A stretch of 50,598 bases of DNA, taken from Gammaproteobacteria bacterium. Lineage in GTDB: Bacteria; Pseudomonadota; Gammaproteobacteria; Eutrophobiales; Eutrophobiaceae. The notes beneath the pieces were generated by a model. That model made no database searches and was not told the DNA's origin. It saw only the letters and a list, made by a program, of their open reading frames with translations. Location: assembly GCA_016193395.1 (NCBI GenBank), contig JACPSH010000022.1:1-50598 (forward strand). The letters run 5' to 3'. Positions 715 to 17,664 of the stretch are shown in pieces. Both the position numbers and the translations under genes were made by a program. Within the stretch, counting starts at the first letter, position 1. The number at the start of each line of letters is the position of its first letter.

Positions 715-3161
715 TCAATCCAACGTAATCCTCACCGGCTTCACCTTCCAAATTTCCTCGCAGTATTCGCGGATGGAGCGGTCGGAGGAGAATTTCCCGC
801 CGCGGGCGACATTCAGAATTGACATGCGCGTCCAGCGCTCGCTGTCGCTGTAGGCGCGGGCCACCTCGTCCTGGCGCTCGACGTAGGACGGGTAATCGGC
901 GAACAGCAGGTAGTCGTCGTGGCAGAGCAGCGCATCGACGAGCGGATGGAACAAGCCCCTGTCATCCAGCGAGAAGGTGCCGTTTGCGATTAGATCGATG
1001 ACCGCCTTGAGTTGCGGGTTGCGCTCGTAGAGTTCGCGTGGACGATAACCCGCGGCGCGGGTCGCGCGCACCTCATCCTCCGTCAGCCCGAACAGGAAGA
1101 AGTTCTCCGGTCCGACGGCTTCGCGGATCTCCCCGAGGCCTCCTTGCCGGCGAGCGAGATCTGCTCGGAGACATCCGCGGCCGGGTAGATCAACTGCGAC
1201 TGCTTGACGCTGAAATTCGGCAGGAAGGCAACGCGCATGCATTGATTCACTTCCGAGTCGCCGTTCACGACGCGTGCCACCGAGTTGATGAGCTTGATGA
1301 TGCGCTTTGCCATGAAGTAGCCGGGCGCGGCCTTGCCGCCGAACAGGAACACGCGCGGCACCGTCTTCAGTTTGGGGTCGCGCTTCAGGCGCAGGTAGTG
1401 GGTGACGATGTAGAGCACGTTCAGGTGCTGGCGCTTGTACTCGTGCATGCGCTTGAACTGCATGTCGAACAACCAGTCCGGATTCACCTCGACCCCGGTT
1501 TCGGCCTTGAGGTATTCCGCCAGTCTCGCCTTGTTCGCGCGCTTGACTTCGCGCCAGCTCTTGCGGAAGGCCGCGTCCTCCGCCAGCGGCTCCAGTCTGT
1601 TCAATTCCTCGGAATGCCGGATCCAGCCCGTGCCGATGTGCTTGCTGATCAGATCGCTCAAGCTCGGGTTAGCGAGCAGCAAAAAGCGCCGCGGCGTCAC
1701 GCCGTTGGTCACGTTGCGGAAGCGCTCCGGCCAAAGCGCATGGAGGTCACACAACAAGCTGCTCTTGAGCAGCTCGCTGTGCAGCCGCGCGACGCCGTTG
1801 ATCGAGTGCGAGCCGACGCAGGCGAGATTCGCCATGCGCACGCGCTTCTGGCCGTGTTCGTCTATGAGCGACACGCGCGACACCAAGCCGTCATCGTGCG
1901 GATGGCGCTTGTGCACCTCGTCCAGGAAGCGCTGGTTGATCTCGTAGATGATCTCGAGGTGCCGCGGCAGCAGCGATTTGAACAATGGCAACGGCCAGGT
2001 CTCGAGGGCTTCCGGCATGAGCGTGTGATTGGTGTAGCCGAAAGTACGCTGCGTGATCGCCCAGGCCTCGTCCCAACCCAGCAGGTGATCGTCCACCAGC
2101 AGGCGCATCAGCTCGGCGACGGCGATCGCCGGGTGCGTGTCGTTCAACTGCACGGCGTACTTTTCGTGGAAGGTGCGGACATCCGCGCCGGGGACCTGAC
2201 GGTGAATGCGGATCATGTCCTGCAAGGAGCAGGTGCAGAACAGGTATTGCTGCGCGAGCCGCAGCGTCTTGCCCGCCGCCGGCTCGTCATTGGGGTAGAG
2301 CACCTTGGTGATGGTCTCGGAGCGGATCTTTTCGTTGACCGCGCCCCAGTAATCGCCGACGTTGAAGGCGTGAAAATCGAATGACTCCACCGCCTCCGCC
2401 GTCCACAGCCGCAGCAGGTTGGCGGTCCCCACGCCGAAGCCCAGGATCGGCGTGTCGTAGGCCACGCCCCGCACTTCGCGGTCCGGGATCCAGCGCACCC
2501 GGTAGCGGCCCTGCTCGTCTGTGTAAGCCTCCGTGCGGCCGCCCAGCTTCACGTTGAAGGCAATCGTCGGCCGCGGGATCTCCCAGGGATTGCCGAAGCG
2601 CAGCCACTTATCCGAGCGCTCGACCTGCCAGCCGTCGCGGATCTCCTGCCTGAAGATGCCGAACTCGTAGCGGATCCCGTAGCCGATGGCCGGGATCTGG
2701 AGCGTCGCCAGCGACTCCATGTAGCACGCCGCGAGCCGGCCGAGGCCGCCGTTGCCGAGACCCGGCTCCTCTTCCTCCGCGATCAGGCGATCGACATCGA
2801 GATCGAGTTCCTGCATGGCCTGGCGCACCTGCGGGGCGATCCCGAGGTTGAGCAGGTTGGCTGCCAGGTGCGGCCCGAGCATGAATTCCGCGGAGAGGTA
2901 GCAGACCGTGCGCGCGGCCCGGTTCTTGAAGGTCTGCGCGCTCTTGATCCAGTTCTTGAGCAGCCGGTCGCGGACCGTGTAGGCCAGCGCGTGGTAGTTG
3001 TCGTTGACGCCCGCGACTTCGCGGAAACGGGCCTGGATGTAATACAGGTTGTCGATGAAATCGCGCTTGATGGCCTCAACGCTGTTGCCGGTCCGGACGG
3101 ACGCGCCGTCCTGCGGCTCGACCAGTTTTGCGATGCTGCTTATCGGGGCTTCCCGGTTCAT
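715..3161 (-). pseudogene. glgP: Glycogen/maltodextrin phosphorylase, disrupted by an internal out-of-frame deletion
   Basis: Two minus-strand frames together give a GT35 alpha-glucan phosphorylase, which releases glucose-1-phosphate using a PLP cofactor. The first frame starts at 3161 (MNREAPISS) and is collinear with the family through GLGNGGLGRLAACYMESLA and [14 protein letters not shown]. The second resumes at [15 protein letters not shown] and ends at 715. The two meet near 1130-1134. Family members carry about 22 residues between these blocks, including the GNMKF segment whose lysine holds PLP. That segment is absent and the frame changes, consistent with loss of about 67 bases. As written, translation leaves frame and ends at 1083, and even a repaired frame would lack the PLP lysine. 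Phosphoglucomutase and a HicB gene lie upstream on the same strand. Confidence 0.9.
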
Positions 3162-3645: not shown

Positions 3646-5307
3646 TCAATAATGGTATGGTCCGGCGGCAAGGGTCCGGCGAATAATCTCCTGGGCCTCT
3701 TCCACGATGGCCTCAAGATGGGCCTGGCCAGTGAAGCTCTCGGCATAGAGCTTGTAGATGTTCTCCGTGCCGGAAGGCCTGGCCGCGAACCAGCCGTTCT
3801 TCGTCACCACTTTCAATCCGCCGATGGGCGCGTCGTTGCCTGGGGCGCGCGTGAGCCTGGCGATGATCGTCTCACCGGCCAATTGCGTGGCCGTGACCGC
3901 CTCGGGCGAAAGCTTCGCGAACTTCTTTTTCTGTTCCGTCGTGGCCGGCGCATCGATGCGGACGTAATGAGGCGTCCCATGCCGCGCGGCCAGTTCCTGG
4001 TAATACGCGAAGGGATCCTTCCCGGTGCAGGCGGTGATCTCCGCCGCCAGGAGGCCGAGCAGCAGGCCGTCCTTGTCCGTGGTCCAGACCGTTCCATCCC
4101 GGCGCAGGAAACTCGCCCCGGCGCTCTCCTCTCCGCCGAAGCACAGCGAACCCCCCAGCAGTCCCGCCGCGAACCACTTGAATCCAACCGGTGCTTCGAA
4201 AAGCGCGCGTCCGAGGCCGGCGACCACGCGATCGATCAGGCCGCTGCTCACGAGGGTCTTGCCCACGGCAGCGGTCGCCGGCCATTGCGGACGATGGGTG
4301 AGCAGGTAGTCGATCGCCACCGCCAGGTAATGGTTGGGATTCATCAGCCCCGCGCCCGGCGTGACGATGCCGTGGCGATCGGCGTCGGGATCGTTGCCGA
4401 AGGCGATGTCGAAGCGATCCCTGAGCCCCACCAGTCCGGCCATGGCGTAAGCGCTGGAACAGTCCATCCGGATCTGTCCGTCATGGTCGAGCGTCATGAA
4501 ACGGAAGGTCGGATCAAGCGTGGAATTCACCACGCTGAGATCCAGGCCGTACTGCTCCCGCACGACCTGCCAGTATCCGGCGGCGGAGCCGCCCAACGCG
4601 TCGATCCCTACCTTCAGCCCGGCCCGGCGGATGACCTCCATGTCGATCGCATTCGCCAGATCCGTCACATAGGGCAGGACATAATCCACGTGTCGGGTGG
4701 TGGCGGCCCGGCGTGCGGCATCGAAGGAAATGCGCCGGATTTCCCGGTTGCCGGAACGCAGGAGCGTGTTCGCGCGCTCCTGGATCCAGCCTGTCTCCTC
4801 GGTATCCGCCGGCCCGCCATGGGGCGGGTTGTATTTGAAGCCGCCGTCCTGTGGCGGATTGTGCGAAGGCGTGATCACGATCCCGTCCGCAACATGCGCG
4901 GCCCGATTGCGGTTGTGCGTCAGGATGGCGTGGGAGATCACCGGCGTCGGTGTCACGCCATCATCCCGCTGGATCGCTGTGTCGACCCCATGGGCGGCCA
5001 GGACTTCCAGCGCGGTGCGCTCGGCAGGCGCCGAAACCGCGTGCGAATCCTTACCCAGGTAAAGCGGGCCGTCTGTGCCTTTTATGGAACGGTACTCGCA
5101 GATCGCCTGGGTGATCGCGAGTACGTGCGCCTCGGTGAAACTTGCTTTGAGGGGTGAGCCCCGGTGACCGCTGGTGCCGAAACTGATGCGTTGCTCGGGA
5201 TCAGCCGGGTCCGGCCGGCCATCGTAGTAGGCGCGCTCGAGCCGGCTGGCATCGATCAGCAGGTCCTCGGGCGGCGGCCTGCCGGCGAGGGGGTGAACGG
5301 TCATCAC
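3646..5307 (-). CDS. pgm: Phosphoglucomutase, alpha-D-glucose specific
   Basis: This enzyme interconverts glucose-1-phosphate and glucose-6-phosphate. The 553-residue product has the full alpha-D-phosphohexomutase signature: [10 protein letters not shown] at 41-50, the phosphoserine loop [12 protein letters not shown] with Ser148, the metal-binding loop NDPDADRHG (DPDADRHG at 306-313) and the sugar-binding loop [10 protein letters not shown] at 391-400. Length is normal for the bacterial Pgm family. Two ATGs lie in tandem at 5307 and 5304; the GGAGGAG upstream is better spaced for the second, so translation may begin at 5304. It is divergent from the STAS gene (109 bases between) and precedes hicB and glgP on the minus strand. 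It would link glycogen breakdown to the G6P dehydrogenase encoded at 22.4 kb. Confidence 0.96.
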
Positions 5308-5416
5308 TCCTCCAGATTGGAAGCCATGGTCAGTATTTCAATGTGCGGATGTTCAGGGTAGCCGATCGCGGTTACACTTCCATCAGGCCGGAGGGGGAAT
5401 CGCGAGGGCTCCGCCG

Positions 5417-5749
5417 ATGCAATTCAAACTGCGGGCAGTGGGAAAATACACCGTCATCGACTGGACGGGCGACATGGATCTGTCCTGCACCTCGGATGCC
5501 CGCAAACAATTACTTCAATGTCAGGATGACGGGCAGCATGTGCTCGTCGACCTCACCGCCGTCTTCCACATAGACAGCTCGGGCGTCGCGGTCCTGGTCG
5601 AAGGCTACCAGATCGCGAAGGAATACGGACTCGACTTCGGCCTGGTCGGTGTCAGCCATTCGGTCATGTCGGTGCTGAAACTTGCGCATATCGATGAGAT
5701 CGTTCCCATCCATGCGTCCGCCGAGGCTCTTGTCAATTCTGAATGCTGA
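5417..5749 (+). CDS. STAS-domain protein, anti-sigma factor antagonist-like
   Basis: The 110-residue protein is a single STAS domain (SpoIIAA/RsbV-like). It begins MQFKLRAVGKYTVIDWTGD and carries the signature HIDSSGVAVLVEG, with D53-S54-S55-G56. One of those serines matches the residue phosphorylated by anti-sigma or HPK-type kinases in characterised members. These proteins act as phosphorylation-controlled binding switches. No cognate anti-sigma kinase or phosphatase lies nearby, so the partner is unknown. It leads the plus-strand group that continues with two methyltransferase-like genes and an ATP-grasp gene, with 47 bases to the next start. It may be a separate gene that merely precedes that group. 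Confidence 0.85.
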   Translation: MQFKLRAVGKYTVIDWTGDMDLSCTSDARKQLLQCQDDGQHVLVDLTAVFHIDSSGVAVLVEGYQIAKEYGLDFGLVGVSHSVMSVLKLAHIDEIVPIHASAEALVNSEC

Positions 5750-5796
5750 GAGGTTTGGTGCGCGAGGCGATTCTGTCCGGCCGTTGCGCCAGTCTA

Positions 5797-6609
5797 ATGA
5801 GCAAGAACTTCGATCCCCACGCCCGGATCTACGATGCCACCCGGACGTTCTCGCCAGGTTCCCAAAAGGTCATCGTTGACTCGATTGTGCGCTCCGTGTG
5901 CGCGACACGCGGGTCGCGCTTCCTGGAACTCGGCGTCGGCACCGGCCGGTTCGCGCTTCCCATCGTCCGCCGCGGTTACCGCCTTACAGGCATCGATATC
6001 TCCGAAAACATGTTGCGCAACTTCCGCGGCAAGTTGCGGCATTCCGGCCTGGCAGCCAGGCTGCTGAAAGCAGATGCCGGCAGCCTGCCGTTTGCGGACG
6101 GCGTGTTTGACGTCGTCATGGCCATGCTGGTGCTGCACTGGATGCCGGATTTCCGAAAGACACTGTCCGAGACCAGGCGGGTCCTGCGTGGAGACGGCTG
6201 CCTGGTCTTCTATAATGGGCGGCCGCGATCCGCCAACATCAACGAATTGAACGATGAAGACGGGCTCACGGAAGTGGACATTGCCTGGCAGCGCATCCTC
6301 AATGCCTACCGTGGAGATCGGCCGGCAGAGGTCGCCTCCGAGACTGACATTCTTGAAGCATTGCATCAAATGGGCGCGAAAATCGAGACAAAGGAAGTCG
6401 GAAAATGGGTCCGCAAGATCACGCCGCGCGAAACCATTGCCCGGCTCAAGACCAGGAGTTTCAGCGAAGATCGCGACCTGCCCCGCGATGATTTCATCCG
6501 GCTCGTGTCCCAGCTCGAAAAGTGGTGCCGGGAACGATTCGAGTCGATGGAGGTCGTTCTGCACCGAAGGCGCAAGTTCAGATATCACGTGATTCGATTC
6601 GCGCGATGA
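5797..6609 (+). CDS. Class I SAM-dependent methyltransferase
   Basis: This 270-residue protein has a Rossmann-fold methyltransferase core: motif I LELGVGTG at 43-50, the acidic end of strand 2 in GIDIS at 65-69, and the post-I/II segment DAGSLPFADGVFDVV at about 93-107, followed by VLHWMPDFRKTL. This is the Methyltransf_11/UbiE-like pattern; the substrate cannot be told from sequence. I chose the ATG at 5797 (MSKNFDPHARIYDA) because homology-like sequence begins there. An ATG at 5743 would overlap the STAS stop and add an unconvincing leader. The C-terminal 90 residues are basic and unusual for the core fold. Its stop overlaps the next start (ATGA at 6606-6609), implying translational coupling. 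Confidence 0.88.
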   Translation: MSKNFDPHARIYDATRTFSPGSQKVIVDSIVRSVCATRGSRFLELGVGTGRFALPIVRRGYRLTGIDISENMLRNFRGKLRHSGLAARLLKADAGSLPFADGVFDVVMAMLVLHWMPDFRKTLSETRRVLRGDGCLVFYNGRPRSANINELNDEDGLTEVDIAWQRILNAYRGDRPAEVASETDILEALHQMGAKIETKEVGKWVRKITPRETIARLKTRSFSEDRDLPRDDFIRLVSQLEKWCRERFESMEVVLHRRRKFRYHVIRFAR

Positions 6610-7508
6610 AGTGGTCCGGCTCTGAATCCGGGGACTTCGACGAGGCCGCGGTAGCCGGCATTCTTCGGACCTTCAGTTTCCTGACGCCGCCGATCCGCCC
6701 ATCCGGCGCCGTCATCGCCGAATTCCGGAGGCATTTCGAAGCGGCGGCGGGCAGACCGACCCTGATTTACGGGGCGACGCCTGAACTGGTGGACCTGGCG
6801 AACGATCTGGGCTGCCCGCAGGTCGTCTCCCTGGACTGGAACGCCGACACCTTCGAGGCGATGCGGCGGATCGCGCGGACCGACTGGAGCGGCGTCATCT
6901 TCCGGCACGGCAACTGGACCATTCCCGAGCCTGAGTTCAGAGGCAGGTTCGGCTGCGTGGCCTGCGACGGCGGGCCGCTGTTCCTGCGCTACCCGGACCA
7001 GTGGCGCACCGCCTCGGAAGCGGCATACGGATACCTGGACCCCGGAGGACGCTGGGTCAGCCGGGCCGTCGACTGGCCGGCTGAAGACCCGCCATTCGAT
7101 GCCTGCCTGCGCAGATACGTGGATGAATTCCTGGCGAAGCAAGCGCGCCTGGATGCAGAGGGCCGGCTCGCCGCCTTCAAATCGCTGACCGTGGAGATCC
7201 GGGTGCGCTCGTTCCAGCGCGTGGTCGGTGAAAACTTCTCGATCGATCAGCGGAAACTGGCGCGGCGCAACGATGAGGCCGCGCGCATCCTGTTCGCGGA
7301 ATTCCCCGAGCCCCGGCTGCGCGAGATCGCGGAAATGAACCTGCTGCGGCTCGCGCGGCCCGACCCGCAGCAATCCGAGCTGGTCAGCATAGTCCCTCCG
7401 GGGGCGGCTCGCCGGACGCTCGAGGACATCGGCTTCGTCACCGAAGTGACGGATCTCAAAGCGGCCGTTCCGGCATGCGACTACGTGCTTGCCGGCATCA
7501 GGAGCTGA
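6606..7508 (+). CDS. Divergent methyltransferase-like protein of unknown substrate
   Basis: The 300-residue product starts at the ATG overlapping the previous stop. It resembles a class I methyltransferase fold with weakened motifs: LIYGATPEL (53-61) at the motif I position, VSLDWN (74-79) at the strand-2 acidic position, and GCVACDGGPLF (from 116) where motif IV would sit. The glycine-rich loop has only part of the GxGxG pattern, so SAM binding is plausible but unproven. The remainder (about 130-300) matches no family I recognise. Coupling to the upstream methyltransferase suggests the two act together, perhaps as an unequal pair on one substrate. Confidence 0.7.
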   Translation: MKWSGSESGDFDEAAVAGILRTFSFLTPPIRPSGAVIAEFRRHFEAAAGRPTLIYGATPELVDLANDLGCPQVVSLDWNADTFEAMRRIARTDWSGVIFRHGNWTIPEPEFRGRFGCVACDGGPLFLRYPDQWRTASEAAYGYLDPGGRWVSRAVDWPAEDPPFDACLRRYVDEFLAKQARLDAEGRLAAFKSLTVEIRVRSFQRVVGENFSIDQRKLARRNDEAARILFAEFPEPRLREIAEMNLLRLARPDPQQSELVSIVPPGAARRTLEDIGFVTEVTDLKAAVPACDYVLAGIRS

Positions 7509-7515
7509 AACGGAT

Positions 7516-8424
7516 ATGCAGGAACCCCACATTCCGCAACCGACGCCGCGCGGCCGCAAGTCCGCGGTTCGTCGCCCGCCGCAGCGGCGCCGGCAGGCCG
7601 CCGCCAAGCCCGGAACAAAGAAGCGCATCGTCATCCTGGTGCACGAAAACTCCAAGCCCCAGCACCGCGGGCTGTATTTCATCGCTCAGTTGGCGATGCT
7701 CTGGGCAAGACGGAGCCTTGAGATCCGGGTCATGCGGGGGCCCGTCCGCCGCGTGCCCGGAGACGTCCTCTTCGTGCACGTCGATCTTTCCCGTGTCCCG
7801 GAGCCGTACCTGGCCGTCGCGGCCCACTACCCTGCCTCAGTCAACGGCCGCGTGAGGGATATCCGCAAATCGGTGATCAGCCGCCACCTGGTTGGACGCG
7901 ACAGCGACTGGGACGGCCCGGTGATCGTGAAGACGGACCTGAACTGCGCCGGTTTGCCGGAGAATCGGTACACGGGCACCCGCGGTCCCGGTCTTCCCTG
8001 GAAGTTGAGAACCTCGAACGACTATCCGATCTTTGCCCATCGCTCGGAAGTTCCGCTCAAACTACTGCGGAATCCCGGCCTGGTTGTGGAGAAGTTCCTG
8101 CCGGAAAGGGCGGGCGAAAGCTACTGCCTCCGAAGCTACAATTTCCTCGGCGACGTCGAGGATTGCTTCCTCGTGTACAGCGAGAAGCCGGTCGTGAACA
8201 TGGCCTCCATAACGCGGATGGAAAAAACAGACGTGCACCCGGAGATCCGCAGACTGCGCGAGGAACTCGGGTTCGACTACGGCAAGTTCGACTACGTCGT
8301 CCATGACGGCAAGGCGATCCTCCTCGATGCCAACAAGACCCCCGGACCGCTGCCGATCTCCGATAGAAGTCAGATGGAGATGCTGCGCCGGCGCGCGGAC
8401 GGCATTCGTTCGTTTCTGCGCTGA
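7516..8424 (+). CDS. ATP-grasp superfamily protein with a basic N-terminal extension
   Basis: The 302-residue protein has ATP-grasp features: the nucleotide-binding lysine region GPVIVKTDLNCAG (K139), the hinge GLVVEKFLPE (about 188-197), and the metal-binding C-terminal block FDYGKFDYVVHDGKAILLD with DANKTPG (271-277). ATP-grasp enzymes usually join a carboxylate to an amine or thiol through an acyl phosphate. Residues 1-35 are rich in Arg, Lys, Pro and Gln and are probably disordered or nucleic-acid/surface binding. The ATG at 7516 lies 7 bases after the upstream stop; an in-frame ATG at 7489 would overlap that gene by 20 bases. The gene ends the group and converges on gspF. Substrate unknown. 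Confidence 0.8.
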   Translation: MQEPHIPQPTPRGRKSAVRRPPQRRRQAAAKPGTKKRIVILVHENSKPQHRGLYFIAQLAMLWARRSLEIRVMRGPVRRVPGDVLFVHVDLSRVPEPYLAVAAHYPASVNGRVRDIRKSVISRHLVGRDSDWDGPVIVKTDLNCAGLPENRYTGTRGPGLPWKLRTSNDYPIFAHRSEVPLKLLRNPGLVVEKFLPERAGESYCLRSYNFLGDVEDCFLVYSEKPVVNMASITRMEKTDVHPEIRRLREELGFDYGKFDYVVHDGKAILLDANKTPGPLPISDRSQMEMLRRRADGIRSFLR

Positions 8425-8456
8425 TCCGGGAGCAGTTATCGATCCGATCGAGAAAT

Positions 8457-9674
8457 TCAGGCAACGAGGTTCTGCAGGCTCAAAATCGCCAGCAGGATCG
8501 AAATGATGATGGTCGCAATCAGCGCCCCAAGTCCCAGGATCAGGATGGGCTCAAGTAGCGTGAGGCAGCGCTTGATGCCGTTTGCGGCGTGCTGGTCGTA
8601 GATCTCCGCGACTTTCATCAGCATCGAATTCAACTGACCGCTTTCCTCTCCGACGGCGATGAGCTGAGTTGCCGTAGCAGGTATCAGGCCAGACTCCCGG
8701 ACCGGACCCGCGAACGACATGCCTCGCTCCAGGCTGGTTTCGACACGTGACAACACTTCCTCCAGCGCGAAATTTTGCACGACTCCCCGCGTTTGGCGCA
8801 CTGCGGCGAGCAAAGGCACGCCATTCTTGAGTAACGTGCCCAAGGTGCGCGAGATGCGCGCAATCTCCAGGTCCTGAATCACATTTCCCAGGATTGGTGC
8901 TTCCAGGACTTTCAAATCCCACCAGCGCCGCCAACCCGGGTTCGATAGTGCCGCCTTCGCCAGAAATACCGCTGCAACGGTCAGCAGCAACAACAGCCAC
9001 CAAAGCTCACCTACCACCGCTGCCACCCAGAACACGAACCTCGTGATCAGAGGCAGGGGCTGATTGGTATCTTCGAACAGCGGCACAAACTGCGGCACCA
9101 CAAAAAGCAGGAGCGCAAACAACGACATTACTGAAACGATCAGCAGTATCGCGGGATAAATCAGTGAAGTGACCACGGTTGATCGCAAGTCCGCCATCCG
9201 CTCGAGATAATCCGCGAACCGTTCCAGTACCGGCGCCAACTCGCCACTCGCCTCGCCAGCCCGAACGGTGTTCAAGTATAGAGAATCAAAGACATCACTA
9301 TGATTCTGAAGGGCTTCTCCGAGCGCTTGCCCACGTTGGACGCCTTCGCGCACATTGACGATTACCTCATGAAGTGCGGTGCCTTTTAACAAGCGCTCCA
9401 ACGTTACCAGAGCAGAGTCTAAAGGCATCCCGGCGGTGAGCAATGTGGCAAGCTCACGCGTGGCCGACGCCACATCCCTTCGTTTCACTGAACGCCTGCG
9501 GATTCGCAAACTCAGCGATGAGGCCTTACTCGAAACAGTCACCTCTTCTGCGGAAAGGGGATGGTGACCGGTGTCCTGAAGGTAGGCTATGGCAGTCCGC
9601 GCGCTGTCGGCCTCAACTTCTTTGCTGAATATCCTGCCGTTTGAGTCCGCGGCACGGACAAGGAATCGCGGCAT
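8457..9674 (-). CDS. gspF: Type II secretion inner-membrane platform protein GspF
   Basis: GspF is the polytopic core of the inner-membrane platform on which the pseudopilus is assembled. The 405-residue protein has the duplicated T2SSF cytoplasmic domain: first copy near 65-185 (ASATRELATLLTAGMPLDSA), second near 265-390 (ISRTLGTLLKNGVPLLAA, LIAVGEESGQLNSML). Each copy is followed by membrane segments (about 166-191 and 210-232, then the C-terminal ALIATIIISILLAILSL). Length matches the family. It is the last gene of the operon, 45 bases after gspE, and its 3' end faces the ATP-grasp gene only 32 bases away with no obvious terminator. Confidence 0.96.
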   Translation of the reverse strand: MPRFLVRAADSNGRIFSKEVEADSARTAIAYLQDTGHHPLSAEEVTVSSKASSLSLRIRRRSVKRRDVASATRELATLLTAGMPLDSALVTLERLLKGTALHEVIVNVREGVQRGQALGEALQNHSDVFDSLYLNTVRAGEASGELAPVLERFADYLERMADLRSTVVTSLIYPAILLIVSVMSLFALLLFVVPQFVPLFEDTNQPLPLITRFVFWVAAVVGELWWLLLLLTVAAVFLAKAALSNPGWRRWWDLKVLEAPILGNVIQDLEIARISRTLGTLLKNGVPLLAAVRQTRGVVQNFALEEVLSRVETSLERGMSFAGPVRESGLIPATATQLIAVGEESGQLNSMLMKVAEIYDQHAANGIKRCLTLLEPILILGLGALIATIIISILLAILSLQNLVA

Positions 9675-9719
9675 GTTTTATATATGAAGAATCACTGCGT
9701 TACGGTCATGGCAACGAAT

Positions 9720-11423
9720 TCAGCCCGATTCCTGGATGACCCGTGACACTTCCTCAATGGTCGTGAATCCCTGCAAAGCTTTCTGCAGACCGTGAGTCCG
9801 CATCGGGATCATTCCCTCACTCACCGCCGTTCGGAGAATTTCAGAGTGATCGGCGTGTGCGAGAACACTTTTGCGTATGTCTTCTGACATCGACATGATC
9901 TCGGCAATGACGGTTCGTCCCAGATATCCTGAATGCGCGCATGACTCACAACCAATCGCACGATAAAGAGTGATCGGTTTTGCATCAGCAATCCGATCCA
10001 GTTCAAGCTCACGGATCAAGACTTCGGGCGGTTCATACGGCTCCTTGCATTGCTCGCAGAGAATCCGCACAAGACGTTGAGCCAATACGCAATGGACCGT
10101 GGAGGCAATCAGATAATCTTCGAGTCCCATGTCCAGCAACCGGGTGATGGACCCGGAAGCATCATTGGTGTGCAGCGTAGAAAGTACGAGATGCCCGGTA
10201 AGGGCGGATTGCACCGCGATCCGTGCGGTCTCGAGATCGCGCATTTCCCCGATCATGATGATGTCCGGATCCTGGCGGACGATGGCCCGCAAGGCATTGG
10301 AAAAATCGAGGCCGATATTCGGCTTGACCTGAATTTGATTGACTCCCGCGAGTTGATACTCAACGGGATCCTCCACCGTCAGAATCTTTACACCAGGCTT
10401 ATTGAGAATCGTCAGCCCCGAATACAAAGTGGTGGTCTTCCCGCTACCAGTCGGGCCGGTTACAAGGATGATCCCATGCGTTGCCCGCAGGGAGTCATGC
10501 AGACGACTCAGGGCGGGTCTGCTGAAACCCAGGGCACCCAGTTCCAGGGGAACATACTGCCGATCGAGGAGACGCAGCACCACGCTCTCGCCATGCAAGG
10601 TCGGTACGGTGGACACACGGAGGTCAACCGTCCGGCCCTGAGTCTTCAGTTGAATTCGACCATCCTGTGGCCGGCGACGCTCGGCGATATCTATTTTCGC
10701 CATCAACTTGATACGGGAGATGACCGCGGCGGCGGATCGGACCGGAGGCGCCTCGGCAGGCTGCAACACGCCGTCAATCCGATAGCGCACCTTGAGATCC
10801 TTGTCGAACGGCTCGATGTGAATGTCGGATGCACGCAGTTCCAGAGCGCGATCGATCAGCAGATTGACCAGGCGGATGACCGGGGCCTCCGCCGCCAGAT
10901 CCCGCAGATGTTCGGTAGTATCCCCGGCGGGTCCTTCATCTGCAGACTCGATCTGCTGGACTATACCCTCCATGGCCGTCTGCCCCTCTCCGTAAATAAC
11001 ATTCAGCAGGTTCTCTACGTCGGCCAACGTAGCAATACGCACGTCGATTCTGCGCGACATTGCCAGGGAAAGGGCCTCCAGGGGATATTCATAAGAGGGG
11101 TCGACCGCGGCGACGATGACCGTGTCACCACCATCAGCAAGCGGGACAACGCCAAACTCCCTCAGAAATCGGCTCGAAAGTCCCTTGAATGCTTCTGGAA
11201 CCGCGGCTGAATGACCATCGGAAAGCGGAGGGAACCCGAGAATACGCTGAGTTGCCGCGAGCAAATCCTGCTCGGACAGCACGCCCATCCGTACCAGGGT
11301 CAACCCCAGCCCCTTGGGCGAGCTCTGGTTAAGCCGCCTTGCAGCCTCAAGGTCAGCGGCGGAAATTTTCCCTTGATCGGTAAGGTAGGCGCCTATTTCC
11401 TTAAAGCCAGCCTCTGACATCAA
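9720..11423 (-). CDS. gspE: Type II secretion ATPase GspE
   Basis: This is the cytoplasmic hexameric ATPase that powers pseudopilus assembly. The 567-residue protein has N1/N2 domains (MshEN-like, about 1-145), the core with SDIHIEP at 199-205, Walker A GPTGSGKTT at 323-331, the Asp box, Walker B PDIIMIGEMRD at about 386-396 and the His box LSTLHTNDA. A zinc-binding CxxC pair follows (CEQC at 456-459, then CESC about 29 residues later), a feature separating GspE/PilB-type ATPases from PilT. There are tandem Met codons at the start. It sits between gspD and gspF on the minus strand. Confidence 0.97.
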   Translation of the reverse strand: MMSEAGFKEIGAYLTDQGKISAADLEAARRLNQSSPKGLGLTLVRMGVLSEQDLLAATQRILGFPPLSDGHSAAVPEAFKGLSSRFLREFGVVPLADGGDTVIVAAVDPSYEYPLEALSLAMSRRIDVRIATLADVENLLNVIYGEGQTAMEGIVQQIESADEGPAGDTTEHLRDLAAEAPVIRLVNLLIDRALELRASDIHIEPFDKDLKVRYRIDGVLQPAEAPPVRSAAAVISRIKLMAKIDIAERRRPQDGRIQLKTQGRTVDLRVSTVPTLHGESVVLRLLDRQYVPLELGALGFSRPALSRLHDSLRATHGIILVTGPTGSGKTTTLYSGLTILNKPGVKILTVEDPVEYQLAGVNQIQVKPNIGLDFSNALRAIVRQDPDIIMIGEMRDLETARIAVQSALTGHLVLSTLHTNDASGSITRLLDMGLEDYLIASTVHCVLAQRLVRILCEQCKEPYEPPEVLIRELELDRIADAKPITLYRAIGCESCAHSGYLGRTVIAEIMSMSEDIRKSVLAHADHSEILRTAVSEGMIPMRTHGLQKALQGFTTIEEVSRVIQESG

Positions 11424-11486
11424 TCTGCCATATCGACGCTAACTAACTCTAGGTGTTCCGCCCTTATGACCTGGCTTTTTTCCTTC

Positions 11487-13673
11487 CTAACTCCGAGGTT
11501 CAGGAGCCAGCTCGTGCATTTTTCTCCTGAACTCATCCGTCACATCTTTCGCCTGATCCCGATTGCCGACCACCCTGGGCGTGATCAGGACCAGCAGCTC
11601 GGTCTTGCGATCTTCCAGTTTTGTCTGACCAAATAGTTTCCCGATAATGGGTATCTTGTGCAGTATCGGCACTCCACCTTCACTATTCGTGGTCGTATTC
11701 TGGATCAAGCCGCCTAATACGATTGTATCGCCCGAATTGACGGCGACCACGCTCTCAATCTGCCTCTGTTGAATCGTCGGCGCATCGATGTTCGAGGTTG
11801 TCGTCGCCACGGCATTACTGACTTCCTGGAGTATCTCCATCGTAACGAGTCCGCCGGCATTAACACGCGGCGTGACGCTCAATGTCACCCCTGTCTTTCT
11901 AAACTCAATCTCGTTGACCGTGGGCGAATTGGGATCAATGTTGCTGGTGGATTGGCGCGAGGGAACCGGGATTTCATCGCCGACATTGATGGTCGCTGTC
12001 TGGTTGTCCAATACCATCAACGAAGGAGAGGAAAGAACGTTGAGTTCAGATTCCTGTTCCAGGGCGTTCAATGCCAGGCGCACCTGATCGGCGTTATCTA
12101 CAATGGTATAGGAGAAGCCCGGCGCGATTGCAGCCAGGCCCGCCGCCCCCAGGTCCAGGACGCCGCGCCCTTCCTTACCGCGGCTCGGCTCGATGGAGTT
12201 CTTGAAAAACCATTCAACGCCATAGTTGAGATCATCCCTTAATGTGACCTCGATGATACTGGCTTCAATCAAAACCTGTAGTGGCACGATATCCAGGCGC
12301 GCAATTGCGGATTCCACCATGCGGTAGTCCTCGGGCGAGGCGAGGATGACCAAGGCATTGCGCACATCATCGGCGATAATCTGGATCGAGTCCTGGCTGG
12401 GAAGTGCGGACTCGGAATCCAAAGTGCTCGCTGGCGCCTGGACTGACGGCATTGGCGGTTTCCCCGGCTTTGGCGCTGCCCTGGGGCGCTGTTGGCCCGC
12501 GATGCGCTCATCTGGCTCGCCCGTGACTTCCGCCGGTGATAATCCGGGAGCCAGTTGGGGCTGTCGGGGCTCGCGTGCTTCCACGGCGGTTGCGGATCCG
12601 AAGATGTGACCCAGGATCTCCGCGAGTTCCACCGCTTTGGCGTTTTGCACGTCATAGACATAAAGCTTCCGGCGCGAACTGGCCCCCGGCCGATCCAGTC
12701 GCCGCATCCAGGTTTCCGCTTCGCGAAGGCCGGCAGTCGTTGAGCTGATTAGCAGTATCGAGTTCAGGCGTTCTATGGGGATGGTGCGGACGATGCCACC
12801 CAGGAGTTCCTGCGAAGCTTCCGCTTCCATGCCCCCAATGATGGAATCCAGCTCCGCCTTCAACGTCCGCGGGTCGACATTGTCCAGCGGAAAGAGCCCC
12901 ACGGACATGCCGCGCAGCCAATCCACATCGAAGATGTCCACTGTCTCCTGCACCAGGTCCACTTCCGGTTTCGCGCCGGAGAAGATGACGAGATTGCGCT
13001 TCTTGTCTATGCGGAGATTGCTGTCCTTGGGCAGAACTGGCTCCAGGATCTTCTGCATCTCCTGCGCTGCAATGAACTGAAGCGGAATGATGCGTACCGT
13101 GTATCCAGCTTCACGTTGCTGCGCGGTAGAGGGAGTGGAATAACCTCGCGCCGCATTTTTTCTGGGCACGATCTGAAAGGCTTTGCCGGATTTCACGATG
13201 GCCGCGTTGTTCAGGGACAGCACTTCTTCCAATAGGGACAGGAGATCTGATTTTTTTAGCGGCCTGGAAGTCTCGATAGTGACTTTGCCGCCGACGCTCG
13301 GATCTACAACGTAGTTCTCTTCGAGCATGTCCCCCAATATGACTTTGATGAATTCGCGTAGATCGGCTTCCTGAAAGTTGAGAGTGATGTCGCCGGTATC
13401 CTGATTGTCTTGCGACGCGGGCTCCGGGTTGGCATCGCCCAGGAATTCTCCGGAGCCGAGTTCAACGATCTCCTGCTGAACCGGATTGATGCCTGAAGCA
13501 GCGGATACTTCTGCGCTGTGAGATGGCTGGGGAGATGAAGAGGTCGAGGGCGGACTGGCGGACTCTTGAGATGCGGCATCGGACTCCGCAGTCCCGATAG
13601 ATTGGCAGGCAGACAACAACAGGGCTGTCAGGACCGGAATGAGGCCCCGCAAAATCGCCGTGCTTATCATCAT
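11487..13673 (-). CDS. gspD: Type II secretion secretin GspD, predicted lipoprotein
   Basis: GspD forms the outer-membrane secretion pore. The product contains N0 (ITLNFQEADLREFIKVIL), several N1-N3 KH-like repeats and the C-terminal secretin domain (VLSSPSLMVLDNQTATINVG, VTPRVNAGGLVTMEI, VVAVNSGDTIVLGGLIQ), ending near VLITPRVV. The signal peptide ends in the lipobox LLSAC, so the mature secretin would be lipidated, as described for XpsD of Xanthomonas; this could remove the need for a pilotin. The frame opens at a GTG at 13688. ATGs at 13673 and 13670 follow an AAGG and look better, the second being best spaced. A Pro/Gln/Arg-rich linker (about residues 370-430) is longer than in enterobacterial GspD. 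Confidence 0.95.
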   Translation of the reverse strand: MMISTAILRGLIPVLTALLLSACQSIGTAESDAASQESASPPSTSSSPQPSHSAEVSAASGINPVQQEIVELGSGEFLGDANPEPASQDNQDTGDITLNFQEADLREFIKVILGDMLEENYVVDPSVGGKVTIETSRPLKKSDLLSLLEEVLSLNNAAIVKSGKAFQIVPRKNAARGYSTPSTAQQREAGYTVRIIPLQFIAAQEMQKILEPVLPKDSNLRIDKKRNLVIFSGAKPEVDLVQETVDIFDVDWLRGMSVGLFPLDNVDPRTLKAELDSIIGGMEAEASQELLGGIVRTIPIERLNSILLISSTTAGLREAETWMRRLDRPGASSRRKLYVYDVQNAKAVELAEILGHIFGSATAVEAREPRQPQLAPGLSPAEVTGEPDERIAGQQRPRAAPKPGKPPMPSVQAPASTLDSESALPSQDSIQIIADDVRNALVILASPEDYRMVESAIARLDIVPLQVLIEASIIEVTLRDDLNYGVEWFFKNSIEPSRGKEGRGVLDLGAAGLAAIAPGFSYTIVDNADQVRLALNALEQESELNVLSSPSLMVLDNQTATINVGDEIPVPSRQSTSNIDPNSPTVNEIEFRKTGVTLSVTPRVNAGGLVTMEILQEVSNAVATTTSNIDAPTIQQRQIESVVAVNSGDTIVLGGLIQNTTTNSEGGVPILHKIPIIGKLFGQTKLEDRKTELLVLITPRVVGNRDQAKDVTDEFRRKMHELAPEPRS

Positions 13674-13796
13674 GAACCTTGCCCTCACAGCCCCAGGGAC
13701 GATACCCAGGTGCGCCTTTCTTCGTCTGAATAGAAATTATGTGGTCAAGGGATTGGGCGAGGGAAGGATTTTCACCGTTATATGCGGGAAATACCG

Positions 13797-14417
13797 CTAC
13801 TCGGAGGGTTCAGGGGTGTCAGCTTCCGTGTCTTCGGCCGGTTCCGCTGCATCCACCTCTTCGGTATTCGACTCCGCTTTATTCGGCTCGGCTTTGGGTG
13901 GTTGCGCGGGAGATCTGCGTACCATGAGTACTAACTCCTTGATTTCATTTCCTTTCTTCAGGGAGATCGCCTCCGGCTCGATCCTGACCACCGTCCAGCC
14001 TCCGACCTCGTCTCCGAGTGCGGCCCGGCTCAATCCCTTCACCCCGGGCATTTCGATGACCGCCACCTGCCGACCGCTCGAAAGCGCGATCCCAGCGAGC
14101 ACCATTGCGCCTGTCGCCGGCCTCCTTTGCGCCCCACCCGTTGCGGTGGATACCTCACTATGTGAACCCTCCGGGAACGGGCGCCGACTTGGGTTGAATA
14201 ACGGTCTTTCCATCAGGTCCCGGTTATTGGCGATGAGTTCCACGGAACCCATGGCCTTTGCCGGGGGTTCGGAACTGGGAGCGGCCACCACACTCCGCTC
14301 CGGAACGCGTGTTGTAGATGCCAGGAACGCATATGCCTCCCAGAACAGCGTCGTTGCCAGGACAAGGCATGCGACACCCAGGCCGATCTGAACTCGCCGT
14401 TCAAATCGGGCGTTCAT
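13797..14417 (-). CDS. Type II secretion GspC/XpsN-like coupling protein
   Basis: This 206-residue bitopic protein has one N-terminal membrane segment (about 10-32) and a periplasmic region around 70-170 resembling the GspC homology region (LIANNRDLMERPLFNPSRRP, MVLAGIALSSGRQVAVIEM, LGDEVGGWTVVRIEPEAI). It ends in a Glu/Ala/Pro-rich tail with no PDZ domain. GspC-type proteins link the inner-membrane platform to the secretin. Its place between gspM and gspD is that of xpsN in Xanthomonas, so XpsN-like is the closer label. The start overlaps the gspM stop by 4 bases. A 108-base gap separates it from gspD, leaving room for an internal promoter. Confidence 0.8.
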   Translation of the reverse strand: MNARFERRVQIGLGVACLVLATTLFWEAYAFLASTTRVPERSVVAAPSSEPPAKAMGSVELIANNRDLMERPLFNPSRRPFPEGSHSEVSTATGGAQRRPATGAMVLAGIALSSGRQVAVIEMPGVKGLSRAALGDEVGGWTVVRIEPEAISLKKGNEIKELVLMVRRSPAQPPKAEPNKAESNTEEVDAAEPAEDTEADTPEPSE

Positions 14418-15004
14418 CCCGATCCCTGTCTGGAATCCGCATAGAACCCTGACACCTCCATGTAAACATTCAGGTCCTGAGTCGATGGGCCGCCGGTGCG
14501 ATTTGCTCTCGGTCCAGGGGCCTGAATGGTGAGCTTGTACACAATCATCGCTGGTTTGCCGGTGCGGCTACGTATGAGAAATTGTTGAAGGGCTTCGAGA
14601 CCGATCTGCAATTGCGCGCTTGCGGCGACTGCAGGAAAAGGCGTCTCCCTGGGCTTGGAAACGGCGCGCGTGCTTTTCAGGACCGCGCCTACAGTGTCAC
14701 CCAGCGCTTTGAGTTGTTTCTGTAGATCAGCGACTGCCAATGCTGCCGTGCCCCCTGTAAGCAATCGTGAGAGATCCAATGGTTTCGCGTGAAGCTCCTG
14801 TGCCTGCGCTTCAAGCGACCCAAGTTCTGCCGCAACCTTGACGACCTGTTCAGATTCAAAGCGAATCTGTTCCAGACGAACCGTATTGCGCTGGCGCGCA
14901 TCGAGGGCAGGCAATACCAACAATGCGGTCACGGCACACACGAGGGACAGCAATAGACCGCCGGCCAGGGCGGCGTGCCGGCGTGGTGCGAGTGTGAAGT
15001 TCAT
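14414..15004 (-). CDS. gspM: Type II secretion GspM/PilO-like protein
   Basis: The 196-residue bitopic protein has a membrane segment near residues 13-35 (LLLSLVCAVTALLVLPAL), a coiled-coil stretch (about 40-75, ending near LEAQAQELHA) and a small periplasmic ferredoxin-like domain. GspM pairs with GspL in the inner-membrane platform. The sequence is poorly conserved, so the call rests on topology and position. Both ends overlap neighbours by 4 bases (ATGA junctions with gspL and the gspC-like gene), indicating tight translational coupling. Confidence 0.82.
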   Translation of the reverse strand: MNFTLAPRRHAALAGGLLLSLVCAVTALLVLPALDARQRNTVRLEQIRFESEQVVKVAAELGSLEAQAQELHAKPLDLSRLLTGGTAALAVADLQKQLKALGDTVGAVLKSTRAVSKPRETPFPAVAASAQLQIGLEALQQFLIRSRTGKPAMIVYKLTIQAPGPRANRTGGPSTQDLNVYMEVSGFYADSRQGSG

Positions 15005-16071
15005 GGCGCCGTGACCACTTTGGCTGTGATCTGGAAAACATCCCGCCGGGTTGCATCGCTTCGTGTAATGGGAGAGCGCAACTGTACCGCTTCAAATAAC
15101 GGAGACTGTTCCAGAATGGGGATGATGTCGGCCGCCGCGTCGGATTGCCCCTGCAGATTGACCTCGCCATCCTGATACACGAGACGATTCACCCAGGCAT
15201 TGTCCGGCATTCGATTTGATAACTCTGCAAGCACGCCAATTGCCGTGACCTCGCCGATTCCGGATGTATCCAGAGCCTGTTGTCGCTCTTGCAGCAGACG
15301 CAATTCGCCGCGCAATTTCACAACCTGCTCTGCCTGCGACTTCAGTTTCGCAAGGCGGTCTTCACTTCTGGCAATGGTTATGCCTTGCAATATCACGGGC
15401 AGGTACAACACGGCAATCAGCAAGCAGCCTGCAAGCGCAGCGAGAACTCCAGTTCGTTTTTGTCTGAACAGCGTGGGGCGTAAATGTGCCCTTCGAGGCA
15501 ACAGTGGATATTCCACGCCGCGCCCGCGCTCGGAGACAGAGGCCGGATCCAGACCCAGCCGATCCAGTTGCGCCAGCATTGGATCAACGTCCTCGCGACG
15601 GCAGACGACCAGCTCTCCCATGTACCGGTTGGCATCCTTACTACGACCCCGTATGTGGTAGAAGAAGTAAACTTGATCCTCGAAAAATGGAGTTTGTCTC
15701 TCGAGTTCCAACCGGGCCATTTCCCGGAGATCGCGAGGGCTCGCCGCAGGCAAACTGAGTGCTCGACGCAGTATCCGCCCTGCTGGAATGATCAGCGTCA
15801 CGGGCGCGCCATCTGCATTCAGCGTAACCAGCCAGGAGGTGATACGCTCCTTGTCTGAATCAATAATGGATGAGATAGAGACACCGTCACGATGCGCTCT
15901 CCCCTGTCCCTCCACAATTGAGATAACCCACCCATCCCGAGTCAGTTCCACCTCGATGCGAACCGACCCGGCGGCATAGGCGCCGCGCAGAAATTCAGGC
16001 ACCAGAAGCTTCAGCCCATCTCGCCACCAGGAAAAGAAGTTCTCCATGAGATGATTCAATCGAAGCAGCAT
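15001..16071 (-). CDS. gspL: Type II secretion GspL-like protein (PilM/PilN-type architecture)
   Basis: This 356-residue protein combines a cytoplasmic actin-like region (about 1-210, including LRRALSLPAASPRDLREM) with a membrane segment (about 220-242, VLAALAGCLLIAVLYLPVIL) and a periplasmic coiled coil plus PilN-like domain. GspL recruits GspE to the membrane and partners GspM. I chose the ATG at 16071, two bases after the gspK stop. The frame extends upstream to 16131, but that would overlap gspK by nearly 60 bases. PilN-like similarity in the second half (LAELSNRMPDNAWVNRLVYQ) is clear. Confidence 0.85.
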   Translation of the reverse strand: MLLRLNHLMENFFSWWRDGLKLLVPEFLRGAYAAGSVRIEVELTRDGWVISIVEGQGRAHRDGVSISSIIDSDKERITSWLVTLNADGAPVTLIIPAGRILRRALSLPAASPRDLREMARLELERQTPFFEDQVYFFYHIRGRSKDANRYMGELVVCRREDVDPMLAQLDRLGLDPASVSERGRGVEYPLLPRRAHLRPTLFRQKRTGVLAALAGCLLIAVLYLPVILQGITIARSEDRLAKLKSQAEQVVKLRGELRLLQERQQALDTSGIGEVTAIGVLAELSNRMPDNAWVNRLVYQDGEVNLQGQSDAAADIIPILEQSPLFEAVQLRSPITRSDATRRDVFQITAKVVTAP

Positions 16072-16073
16072 GA

Positions 16074-16997
16074 TCACCCGTGTTTCATTCGTGGTGCACT
16101 GCCTTGCGGGATTGGCGGATTCTCCCGCCATGATAATACCCTGAGGCCACTGCCGGATTCTTCGTCGATGGCCACCGTGACCAACAGTCGAACTTTGGAA
16201 CCCGCCACAGCGCCCACGCTGTCTATTTCGATAACCGGATCGCCGGGACTCGACACCATGTTGCTGTCAACGCCGGAAATCAAGCTGGTCAATGCTGCAC
16301 GCCATTGGACGGGATCCCAATCCGTCACTGCAAAGAAGGATTCGACCACGCCGGCGTCGATGCCCGGCAGCGCAAGCAGTGCGGTCCGTTGAGCAAATTC
16401 CGGGGCAATCCCGGGCAGCCGCGAATGAATCGTCAGAGCGGGTGCAATGGCCTGAAATAGCCCGATCGTCATGCCGGCTACCAGGCCTAATTCTTCCACT
16501 GACGTAAAGGGAGCATTCTTGGGGCCATAGTCAAGACCGCGGCGCTCATATTCCTCCCGTTCTGCGCCGCCAGCCCTTGTCAGATCATCGGCATCTTTCC
16601 AGTCCAATATGACGGCAAGCATGGCGTCCGCATCCTGATCCGGTAATCCAGCCGATTTGAGCAGTGACCACAAAAGCTCTTCCCTGGCCGTATTGAGATC
16701 GACCTTTCCAGCCTCGTGGGTAAGCACGATGGTCGCGATCCCTTGTTCAGTGGATGATTGATGGGGGATACCGTCCGGCTGCCACCTCTCAGCCTCGGTG
16801 TCGGCCCGAAATCTTGACACCGCTATCCACACACCCGCTTCCGCCACGGCCCGCGCCTGCGCTCTTCGAACATTCAAAGATGCGAGTTTGCTGTCGGATC
16901 GCGATTCAGCAGCGATGCTCGCTGCAAGAAGGGTCAGGATTGCCATTATCCACAGCACCATGACCAGCACGATTCCATCCTGGTTTTGAGCACGCAC
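16074..16997 (-). CDS. gspK: Type II secretion minor pseudopilin GspK
   Basis: GspK caps the pseudopilus tip together with GspI and GspJ. The product begins with a short leader before a class III signal-like segment (DGIVLVMVLWIMAILTLLAA) and has the family hallmark DLNTAREELLWSLL, followed by DWKDADDLTRAGGAEREEYE and NAPFTSVEELGLV, within the large alpha-helical insert typical of GspK. The frame stays open upstream to 17174, deep inside gspJ. I chose the GTG at 16997, just after the gspJ stop, with GGGGAGG about 11 bases before it. This gives 307 residues, the usual size. Confidence 0.88.
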   Translation of the reverse strand: MRAQNQDGIVLVMVLWIMAILTLLAASIAAESRSDSKLASLNVRRAQARAVAEAGVWIAVSRFRADTEAERWQPDGIPHQSSTEQGIATIVLTHEAGKVDLNTAREELLWSLLKSAGLPDQDADAMLAVILDWKDADDLTRAGGAEREEYERRGLDYGPKNAPFTSVEELGLVAGMTIGLFQAIAPALTIHSRLPGIAPEFAQRTALLALPGIDAGVVESFFAVTDWDPVQWRAALTSLISGVDSNMVSSPGDPVIEIDSVGAVAGSKVRLLVTVAIDEESGSGLRVLSWRENPPIPQGSAPRMKHG

Positions 16998-17001
16998 GGG
17001 A

Positions 17002-17664
17002 TTAGGCGCCTCCCCAATGGAATTGATCCGCTCCGACTGCCGCCGTACTGCGCACAGGCGCGACGATTTCGAGCAGGCGTTTGTTGCCGTCAGAAAATTT
17101 GATTCGGGCTCGTACCATCGACGGCATTGACGACGCCGACGGCCATCGCGCATGCCATCGCGGCTTGATTCCATCCTCCGCCGATCCGAAATATGAAAAT
17201 TCGACGCCGCTCACGTGTTCAAACAAGACCACGGATTTCTCCCGTTCGCCCCCGGAAGGAGCAACGAAGTCCGTGGCGGGGGTCAGTGGCTCATAGTGAA
17301 GGAAGAGCGCGCTGCGGGAATTGCCGTTCCTTCCTGATTCCAACGTCACTACATATTGACTGTTTATGTCCGTATGCACCGGGAGAGCCGAGATGAAACG
17401 CATCCTGGTTTTCGATCCTGAGAAAGCCACGCGCGCCCCATTTGGACTTTCGACAGTCAGTGGGATGGACTGTTCAAGTTGACGCCGAAATGCTTCCGTC
17501 GCGAGTCGTTGAACGTCATTGGCGGAAAAACGCTGTTCGCTCGCACTCAGATTGCGGCTGGTGGTATATAAGAGCCCGCCCAGCAGCACCAGTATCAGCG
17601 AGAACAGCGCCATGGCGACCAGAACTTCCAGTAGTGTGAATCCTATTTGCAAGCGCCGGTTCAT
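17002..17664 (-). CDS. gspJ: Type II secretion minor pseudopilin GspJ
   Basis: The 220-residue protein starts MNRRLQIG then FTLLEVLVAMALFSLILVLL, a type IV prepilin-like signal with cleavage after Gly8 and Glu at mature position 5. The C-terminal beta-rich domain (about 100-215) is typical of GspJ, which joins GspI and GspK at the pseudopilus tip. It begins 12 bases after gspI and its end lies 4 bases before the chosen gspK start. The prepilin peptidase needed to process it (GspO/PilD) is not in this window. Confidence 0.93.
   Translation of the reverse strand: MNRRLQIGFTLLEVLVAMALFSLILVLLGGLLYTTSRNLSASEQRFSANDVQRLATEAFRRQLEQSIPLTVESPNGARVAFSGSKTRMRFISALPVHTDINSQYVVTLESGRNGNSRSALFLHYEPLTPATDFVAPSGGEREKSVVLFEHVSGVEFSYFGSAEDGIKPRWHARWPSASSMPSMVRARIKFSDGNKRLLEIVAPVRSTAAVGADQFHWGGA

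Follow-up and report, generated by a model that had tools for sequence, protein, structure and literature searches.

Systems in which an ATP-grasp enzyme acts together with a methyltransferase have been described. In the biosynthesis of cystargolide and belactosin, a methyltransferase (CysG/BelI) masks a carboxyl group and amide-forming enzymes including the ATP-grasp CysD/BelU couple amino acids (PMC11427300), and graspetides with aspartimide combine an ATP-grasp enzyme with a PIMT-type methyltransferase (PMC13001092, PMC8939145). Here we report on a stretch of 50,598 nucleotides (the window; contig JACPSH010000022.1 of assembly GCA_016193395.1, Gammaproteobacteria bacterium, Eutrophobiaceae), which is contig C53 of a 60-contig, 2.7 Mb genome. 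It carries an island of four plus-strand genes, the last two of which encode a divergent class I methyltransferase of 300 residues (P0003, 6606-7508) and an ATP-grasp enzyme of 302 residues with a fold like that of RimK, LysX and ArgX (7516-8424). An earlier interpretation made from the letters alone (the sequence-only reading) had joined these two genes with the STAS and canonical methyltransferase genes upstream of them in a candidate pathway, and had stated that no described system held such a set. In view of the precedents above this was too strong. Searches of the literature, Pfam and NCBIfam found systems of similar logic but not a pair of these families; as far as these sources show, it is the pair of these two families that is undescribed, while the logic of ligase plus methyltransferase is already known.

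The pair would resemble the cystargolide and belactosin systems in that one peptide-like molecule is worked on by both an ATP-grasp ligase and a small class I methyltransferase (PMC11427300), and fold and profile searches with the family of the 300-residue protein had CysG and BelI among their matches. However, the sequence match is weak and the conserved pair lacks the lactone-forming adenylating enzyme and the hydrolase; no CysF-type adenylating enzyme or hydrolase was seen among the open reading frames (ORFs) flanking the island, to which this search was limited. Unlike the graspetide systems, the window yielded no precursor peptide, its methyltransferase is not of the PIMT type by Pfam, and the graspetide ligase profile match was not significant. 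The predicted fold of the ATP-grasp enzyme aligns with RimK, LysX, ArgX and glutathione synthetase over 227-237 residues (Z 15-16), and the enzyme shares with them two invariant lysines and metal ligands. However, it is only 10-13% identical to them, and its family matches no RimK model (0/45), has D-x-N in place of E-x-N, and differs from RimK-type ligases in its loop signature, K-[TS]-[DN]-x-N-x-x-G-x-P-E. LdmS, an L-aspartate-L-methionine ligase (NF047900), is likewise an ATP-grasp amino-acid ligase with D-x-N, and in five loci relatives of LdmS are encoded beside the ATP-grasp family; however, LdmS is about 100 residues longer, and the window family does not match NF047900.

When 84,980 genomes were scanned with the ATP-grasp protein as the query, relatives turned up at 45 loci spread over many phyla. 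Genes at these loci were called with a composition-weighted caller and neighbours were clustered, and methyltransferase-like partners were recognised with a profile on which strong members score above 100 bits and generic methyltransferases below 50 bits. The pair was found at 16 loci in six phyla, including the window: 13 with adjacent genes (the window, L003, L033, L039, L041, L043 and L115-L121), two with the members two genes apart (L009, L012), and one in which both are fused (L013, Spirochaetales) as a single 603-residue protein with the ATP-grasp domain followed by the methyltransferase-like domain. The two genes occur on the same strand in either order, divergently, convergently and fused. 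At the nearest locus, L003 (Gallionellaceae), the methyltransferase-like protein is 55% and the ATP-grasp protein 57% identical to those of the window, adjacent and in the same order, and the rest of the island is absent. The conserved unit is therefore the last two genes, two rather than four. The sequence-only reading had proposed a search for co-occurrence of the trio of methyltransferase, methyltransferase-like and ATP-grasp genes, and had named lack of conserved gene order in other genomes as grounds for abandoning the idea; the last two genes do recur together, in six phyla and with one fusion, but the first methyltransferase was found at no other paired locus. Because the pair occurs in six phyla and is once fused, it probably carries out a single small pathway that has not been described.

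The last two genes are paired more often than chance would produce. The 42 genomes bearing the ATP-grasp family contain 14 strong methyltransferase-like places, and at 12 of the 14 a gene of the ATP-grasp family lies next door or two genes away, or is fused to the methyltransferase-like gene. By our estimate, a random gene would fall within 5 kb of one of a few ATP-grasp copies about once per 100 genomes. Four of the 12 paired places (L115, L116, L117, L121) differ from the locus by which their genome entered the sample: in G075, G092, G084 and G089 the entry locus has no methyltransferase-like neighbour, and the genome's sole strong methyltransferase-like match adjoins a second ATP-grasp copy. 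In 397 further genomes of the same phylum, sampled without selection, there were five strong methyltransferase-like places and one partial one (L088 and L144 among them), three of them adjacent to the partner (L118-L120, one genus) and three not; the ATP-grasp profile matched five other genomes of this sample, three of which were those with the L118-L120 pairs. Two phylum samples held no further methyltransferase-like member. Mapping the pairing onto the ATP-grasp tree takes 5-6 changes, and it thus appears repeatedly in distinct branches: Acidobacteriota/Verrucomicrobiota, Spirochaetota/Planctomycetota, a proteobacterial group, the window with L003, and Balneolota.

The window methyltransferase-like protein lies on a long branch with its L003 relative, and we examined its membership of the partner family with leave-out profiles. 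Both proteins were removed from the family profile and then scored, and a reverse profile was built from the two alone. In the forward direction both scored 48 bits, against 44 for the best generic methyltransferase, and P0003 beat 44 of 45 background ORFs; the only background methyltransferase ORF above it, L088, is itself a family member. With the reverse profile, 10 family members were matched (E 4e-8 to 7e-4), and the 45 background ORFs gave no match. The family signature, PLRPS...GVTPEL, appears in the window protein as PPIRPS...GATPEL and lies partly outside the generic fold core. Pfam gave only a sub-threshold methyltransferase match (E 0.05). A structure prediction of the 300-residue protein, proposed beforehand as a check, produced a METHYLTRANSFERASE-like model (mean predicted local distance difference test, pLDDT, 77.7) that aligned with class I methyltransferases at Z 17-19. 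The profile tests in both directions and the common signature show that P0003, though divergent, truly belongs to a separate family of class I methyltransferases and is not a decayed copy. Its earlier description as a degenerate relative of the canonical enzyme was misleading, as the family has its own conserved signature and retains the acidic residue that ends strand 2 (D77, at least 90% conserved), the expected contact to the ribose of S-adenosylmethionine (SAM).

The ATP-grasp protein was modelled with pLDDT 90.2, and the model has the ATP-grasp fold, with 194 PDB matches at E <= 0.001. Its best fold comparisons were with RimK (Z 16.0, root-mean-square deviation 3.4 over 233 aligned residues), LysX (15.8), ArgX (15.7) and glutathione synthetase (15.2). 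K118, K139, D259, D271 and N273, the two ATP-binding lysines and the acidic and asparagine metal ligands, are invariant in 45 of 45 family sequences. Further signatures of the family are GPVIVK-[TS]-[DN]-x-N-x-x-G-x-P-E, FDYGKFDY and LLDANKTPG, and no Pfam or NCBIfam ATP-grasp model, including those for RimK, matches any of the 45 members. Family members were found neither in 57 related genomes nor, as relatives of the window protein, in the PLSDB plasmid collection. The basic tail noted earlier is an N-terminal extension of about 33 residues (7516-7614), probably disordered (pLDDT 51-59) and not conserved, since L003 lacks it. Tandem copies of the family occur in L016, L024, L029 and L035; in the last, a Pseudomonadota metagenome-assembled genome, four or five family genes lie in tandem at 4290-8704. 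The genome of the window also holds a second gene of the family, 40% identical (G000:C10:32077-32880; L002, L124). It follows immediately after a GNAT gene, with enolase-superfamily and SMP-30-like genes around it, and has no methyltransferase-like partner.

The enzymes encoded around both families offered a guide to function. LdmS-like ATP-grasp genes, which score below the cut-off of the NCBIfam LdmS model, lie beside the ATP-grasp family in L030, L032, L038, L041 and L145, as do a cyanophycin-synthetase-like Mur ligase in L041, a glutamine-synthetase-like enzyme in L005, GNAT genes in L002, L022 and L023, and another methyltransferase in L008. Near the methyltransferase-like gene we found cyanophycin-synthetase-like ATP-grasp genes (L112, L142), a condensation domain of a non-ribosomal peptide synthetase (L143), a dimeric O-methyltransferase (L009, L112 and L143, and L012 by clustering) and ThuA-like proteins (L009 by Pfam; L012 and L112 by clustering or reading). 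These amide-forming and peptide-tailoring neighbours are our main reason to prefer amino-acid ligation as the activity of the ATP-grasp enzyme. A gene fusing GNAT with a beta-keto acid cleavage enzyme (BKACE) was observed beside the ATP-grasp gene in L022 and L023 and in the methyltransferase-like cluster L142. The richest cluster, L041 5138-10327 (Akkermansiaceae), holds two genes of the ATP-grasp family, a methyltransferase-like gene, an LdmS-like ligase and the Mur ligase as a stand-alone protein, and is the best candidate locus for finding the product.

We therefore favour a model in which the ATP-grasp enzyme and the 300-residue methyltransferase work as a module of two enzymes for amide ligation followed or preceded by methylation of the same molecule, and we give this an even chance of being correct. 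The ATP-grasp enzyme would convert a carboxyl group into an activated acyl phosphate and couple this to an amine, as in RimK, LysX/ArgX and glutathione synthetase. Working independently of the ribosome, it would link a small acid or peptide with an amino acid and yield an amide, either dipeptide-like or an amino-acid conjugate. The methyltransferase would act on this molecule, adding a finishing N- or O-methyl group or masking a carboxyl group as its methyl ester. In the genome of the window a second, canonical methyltransferase would have joined the operon, and the STAS protein upstream may tie the module to the phospho-switch of the cell. We infer every chemical step from fold, residues and neighbouring genes, and infer likewise ligation over phosphorylation, the common substrate, the order of the steps and any role of STAS. 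Ligation plus methylation, as the sequence-only reading had suggested, is still the best interpretation, now attached to two genes that recur together. A wider claim, that this is a mobile two-gene module of two families not yet described as a system, making a methylated amino-acid conjugate or dipeptide in at least six phyla and hence small peptide metabolites of a new, ribosome-independent class, is one we put forward tentatively and regard as possible rather than probable. The pairing identifies two linked families of enzymes, of which the ATP-grasp family has no Pfam or NCBIfam model, as parts of one small pathway. The compound made could be a natural metabolite or cell component that is new, and the ligase could prove useful as a catalyst of amide formation. 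With its two genes, once fused, the module is very small and portable, which makes direct expression and assay feasible.

Several observations weigh against this model. At 37 of the 45 ATP-grasp loci, some of them on short contigs, no such methyltransferase lies alongside, and since most ATP-grasp relatives are unpaired the ligase can act alone. Unselected methyltransferase-like places in other phyla (L141-L143) have no ATP-grasp family gene alongside; altogether, only three of the nine places in samples not chosen for ATP-grasp are paired, all in one genus, and the others stand alone or near other enzymes. Co-divergence of the two trees is weak (Mantel r 0.36, p 0.009; r 0.20, p 0.065 after near copies were thinned). 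All 45 ATP-grasp family members carry the metal motif D-x-N and not the E-x-N usual in ligases, and motif I of the methyltransferase-like family is GxTPE (GATPEL in the window protein) in place of the textbook GxGxG.

Modification of a protein is unlikely but is the alternative that fares best. By analogy with RimK, which acts in this way on ribosomal protein S6, the ATP-grasp enzyme would attach amino acids to a protein at its C-terminus or on a side chain, and the methyltransferase would cap or methylate that protein. RimK is the top fold match, and the pair often stands alone among housekeeping genes, such as groES/groEL in L118-L120, which would suit a substrate present in every cell. However, no constant neighbour was seen as a possible substrate, the recurrent neighbours are small-molecule enzymes, and the tandem ATP-grasp copies are more suggestive of metabolite assembly.

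The invariant D-x-N motif raises a second alternative, in which the ATP-grasp enzyme is a polyol or sugar kinase like ITPK or PPIP5K and the methyltransferase acts on the phosphorylated product. Inositol phosphate kinases of the ATP-grasp fold carry D-x-N. They rank just below the ligases in our fold comparison (Z 13-15), ITPK1 and PPIP5K are among the best matches, and maize ITPK1 is rank 1 in Foldseek. We consider this quite unlikely, as RimK, LysX and ArgX score higher in the fold comparison and the neighbours of the family are amide-forming. Moreover, the neighbouring LdmS-like ligases also have D-x-N, which weakens the objection to a ligase; the name of their NCBIfam family is that of a dipeptide ligase, although the members here fall below its cut-off.

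The altered motif I, changed throughout the family, could also mean that the 300-residue protein is a non-catalytic subunit or a SAM sensor that regulates the ATP-grasp enzyme. This seems distinctly improbable, since the strand-2 acid is kept along with an invariant aspartate at the strand-4 position (D121), 16 of 18 family members match Methyltransf_11, and the fold is near those of active methyltransferases. R153 is also retained.

A single regulated operon and system of all four genes, STAS included, is very improbable. The genes share one strand, and the STAS gene (110 residues, 5417-5749) lies 47 bases upstream of the trio, but neither it nor the first methyltransferase gene is present at any other paired locus searched, including L003, so that the earlier proposal of both as parts of the system was not borne out. 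The STAS protein (Pfam STAS E 1.8e-14) is of the anti-sigma-factor-antagonist type with a DSSG phosphorylation motif, and scores 59.5 bits against TIGR00377 (SpoIIAA/RsbV-type), above the cut-off of 53.45. A paralogue, 54% identical, lies elsewhere in the genome (G000:C4:76000-86000, L125) in an unrelated Mla-type operon. That operon encodes a GAF-SpoIIE phosphatase, HATPase kinase, STAS, MlaE, ABC ATPase and MlaD, a phospho-switch set by a Mla-type lipid transporter. Unlike this paralogue, the window STAS gene has no cognate kinase or phosphatase gene beside it, and it is probably a local addition. The first methyltransferase (P0002, 270 residues, 5797-6609) is a canonical class I SAM enzyme with an intact motif I, LELGVGTGRFA, that has the GxGxG pattern and matches Methyltransf_11 (E 5.3e-25). 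The nearest solved relative of this first METHYLTRANSFERASE is TTHA0223 (PDB 2yqz, function unknown; E 1.1e-26, full length). Since TTHA0223 aligns residue 10 to residue 10, the start at 5797 is favoured over the in-frame ATG at 5743. No close match to this enzyme (E 1e-15) was found in 55 related genomes. It looks like an accessory to the conserved pair, and together with the STAS protein it would be a local companion of an acquired cassette.

A graspetide-type ribosomally synthesised and post-translationally modified peptide pathway, in which the ATP-grasp enzyme would cross-link a ribosomal precursor peptide alongside a methyltransferase as in graspetides with aspartimide, is scarcely credible: the combination of enzymes is described there (PMC13001092) and the sole ATP-grasp enzyme in our PDB profile search was AMdnB, though at E 0.76, but there is no precursor-like small gene, and of two tiny ORFs mainly outside genes neither is common to L003, where the pair alone matches.

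The island is flanked on one side by pgm (3646-5307, minus strand) and on the other by a type II secretion set that includes gspF (8457-9674, minus strand). The first methyltransferase gene ends in a TGA that shares bases with the start codon ATG of the 300-residue gene at 6606 (ATGA), and 7 bases separate the latter from the ATP-grasp gene; the coordinates and spacings given in the sequence-only reading were exact on recheck. Pfam matches were firm for the STAS protein and the first methyltransferase, and the ATP-grasp protein had none; an NCBIfam scan added nothing for this or the 300-residue protein. A promoter-like site at 6189-6216, inside the first methyltransferase gene, is at about chance level. 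Further upstream, the glycogen phosphorylase gene is split over two frames on the minus strand (715-3161), with 1083-3161 covering model positions 1-562 and 715-1242 covering 583-713, consistent with a frameshift or assembly error. The secretion set adjoining the island (gspF, gspE, gspD and further gsp-like ORFs), named from ORF reading alone, extends over 8457-17174 on the minus strand.

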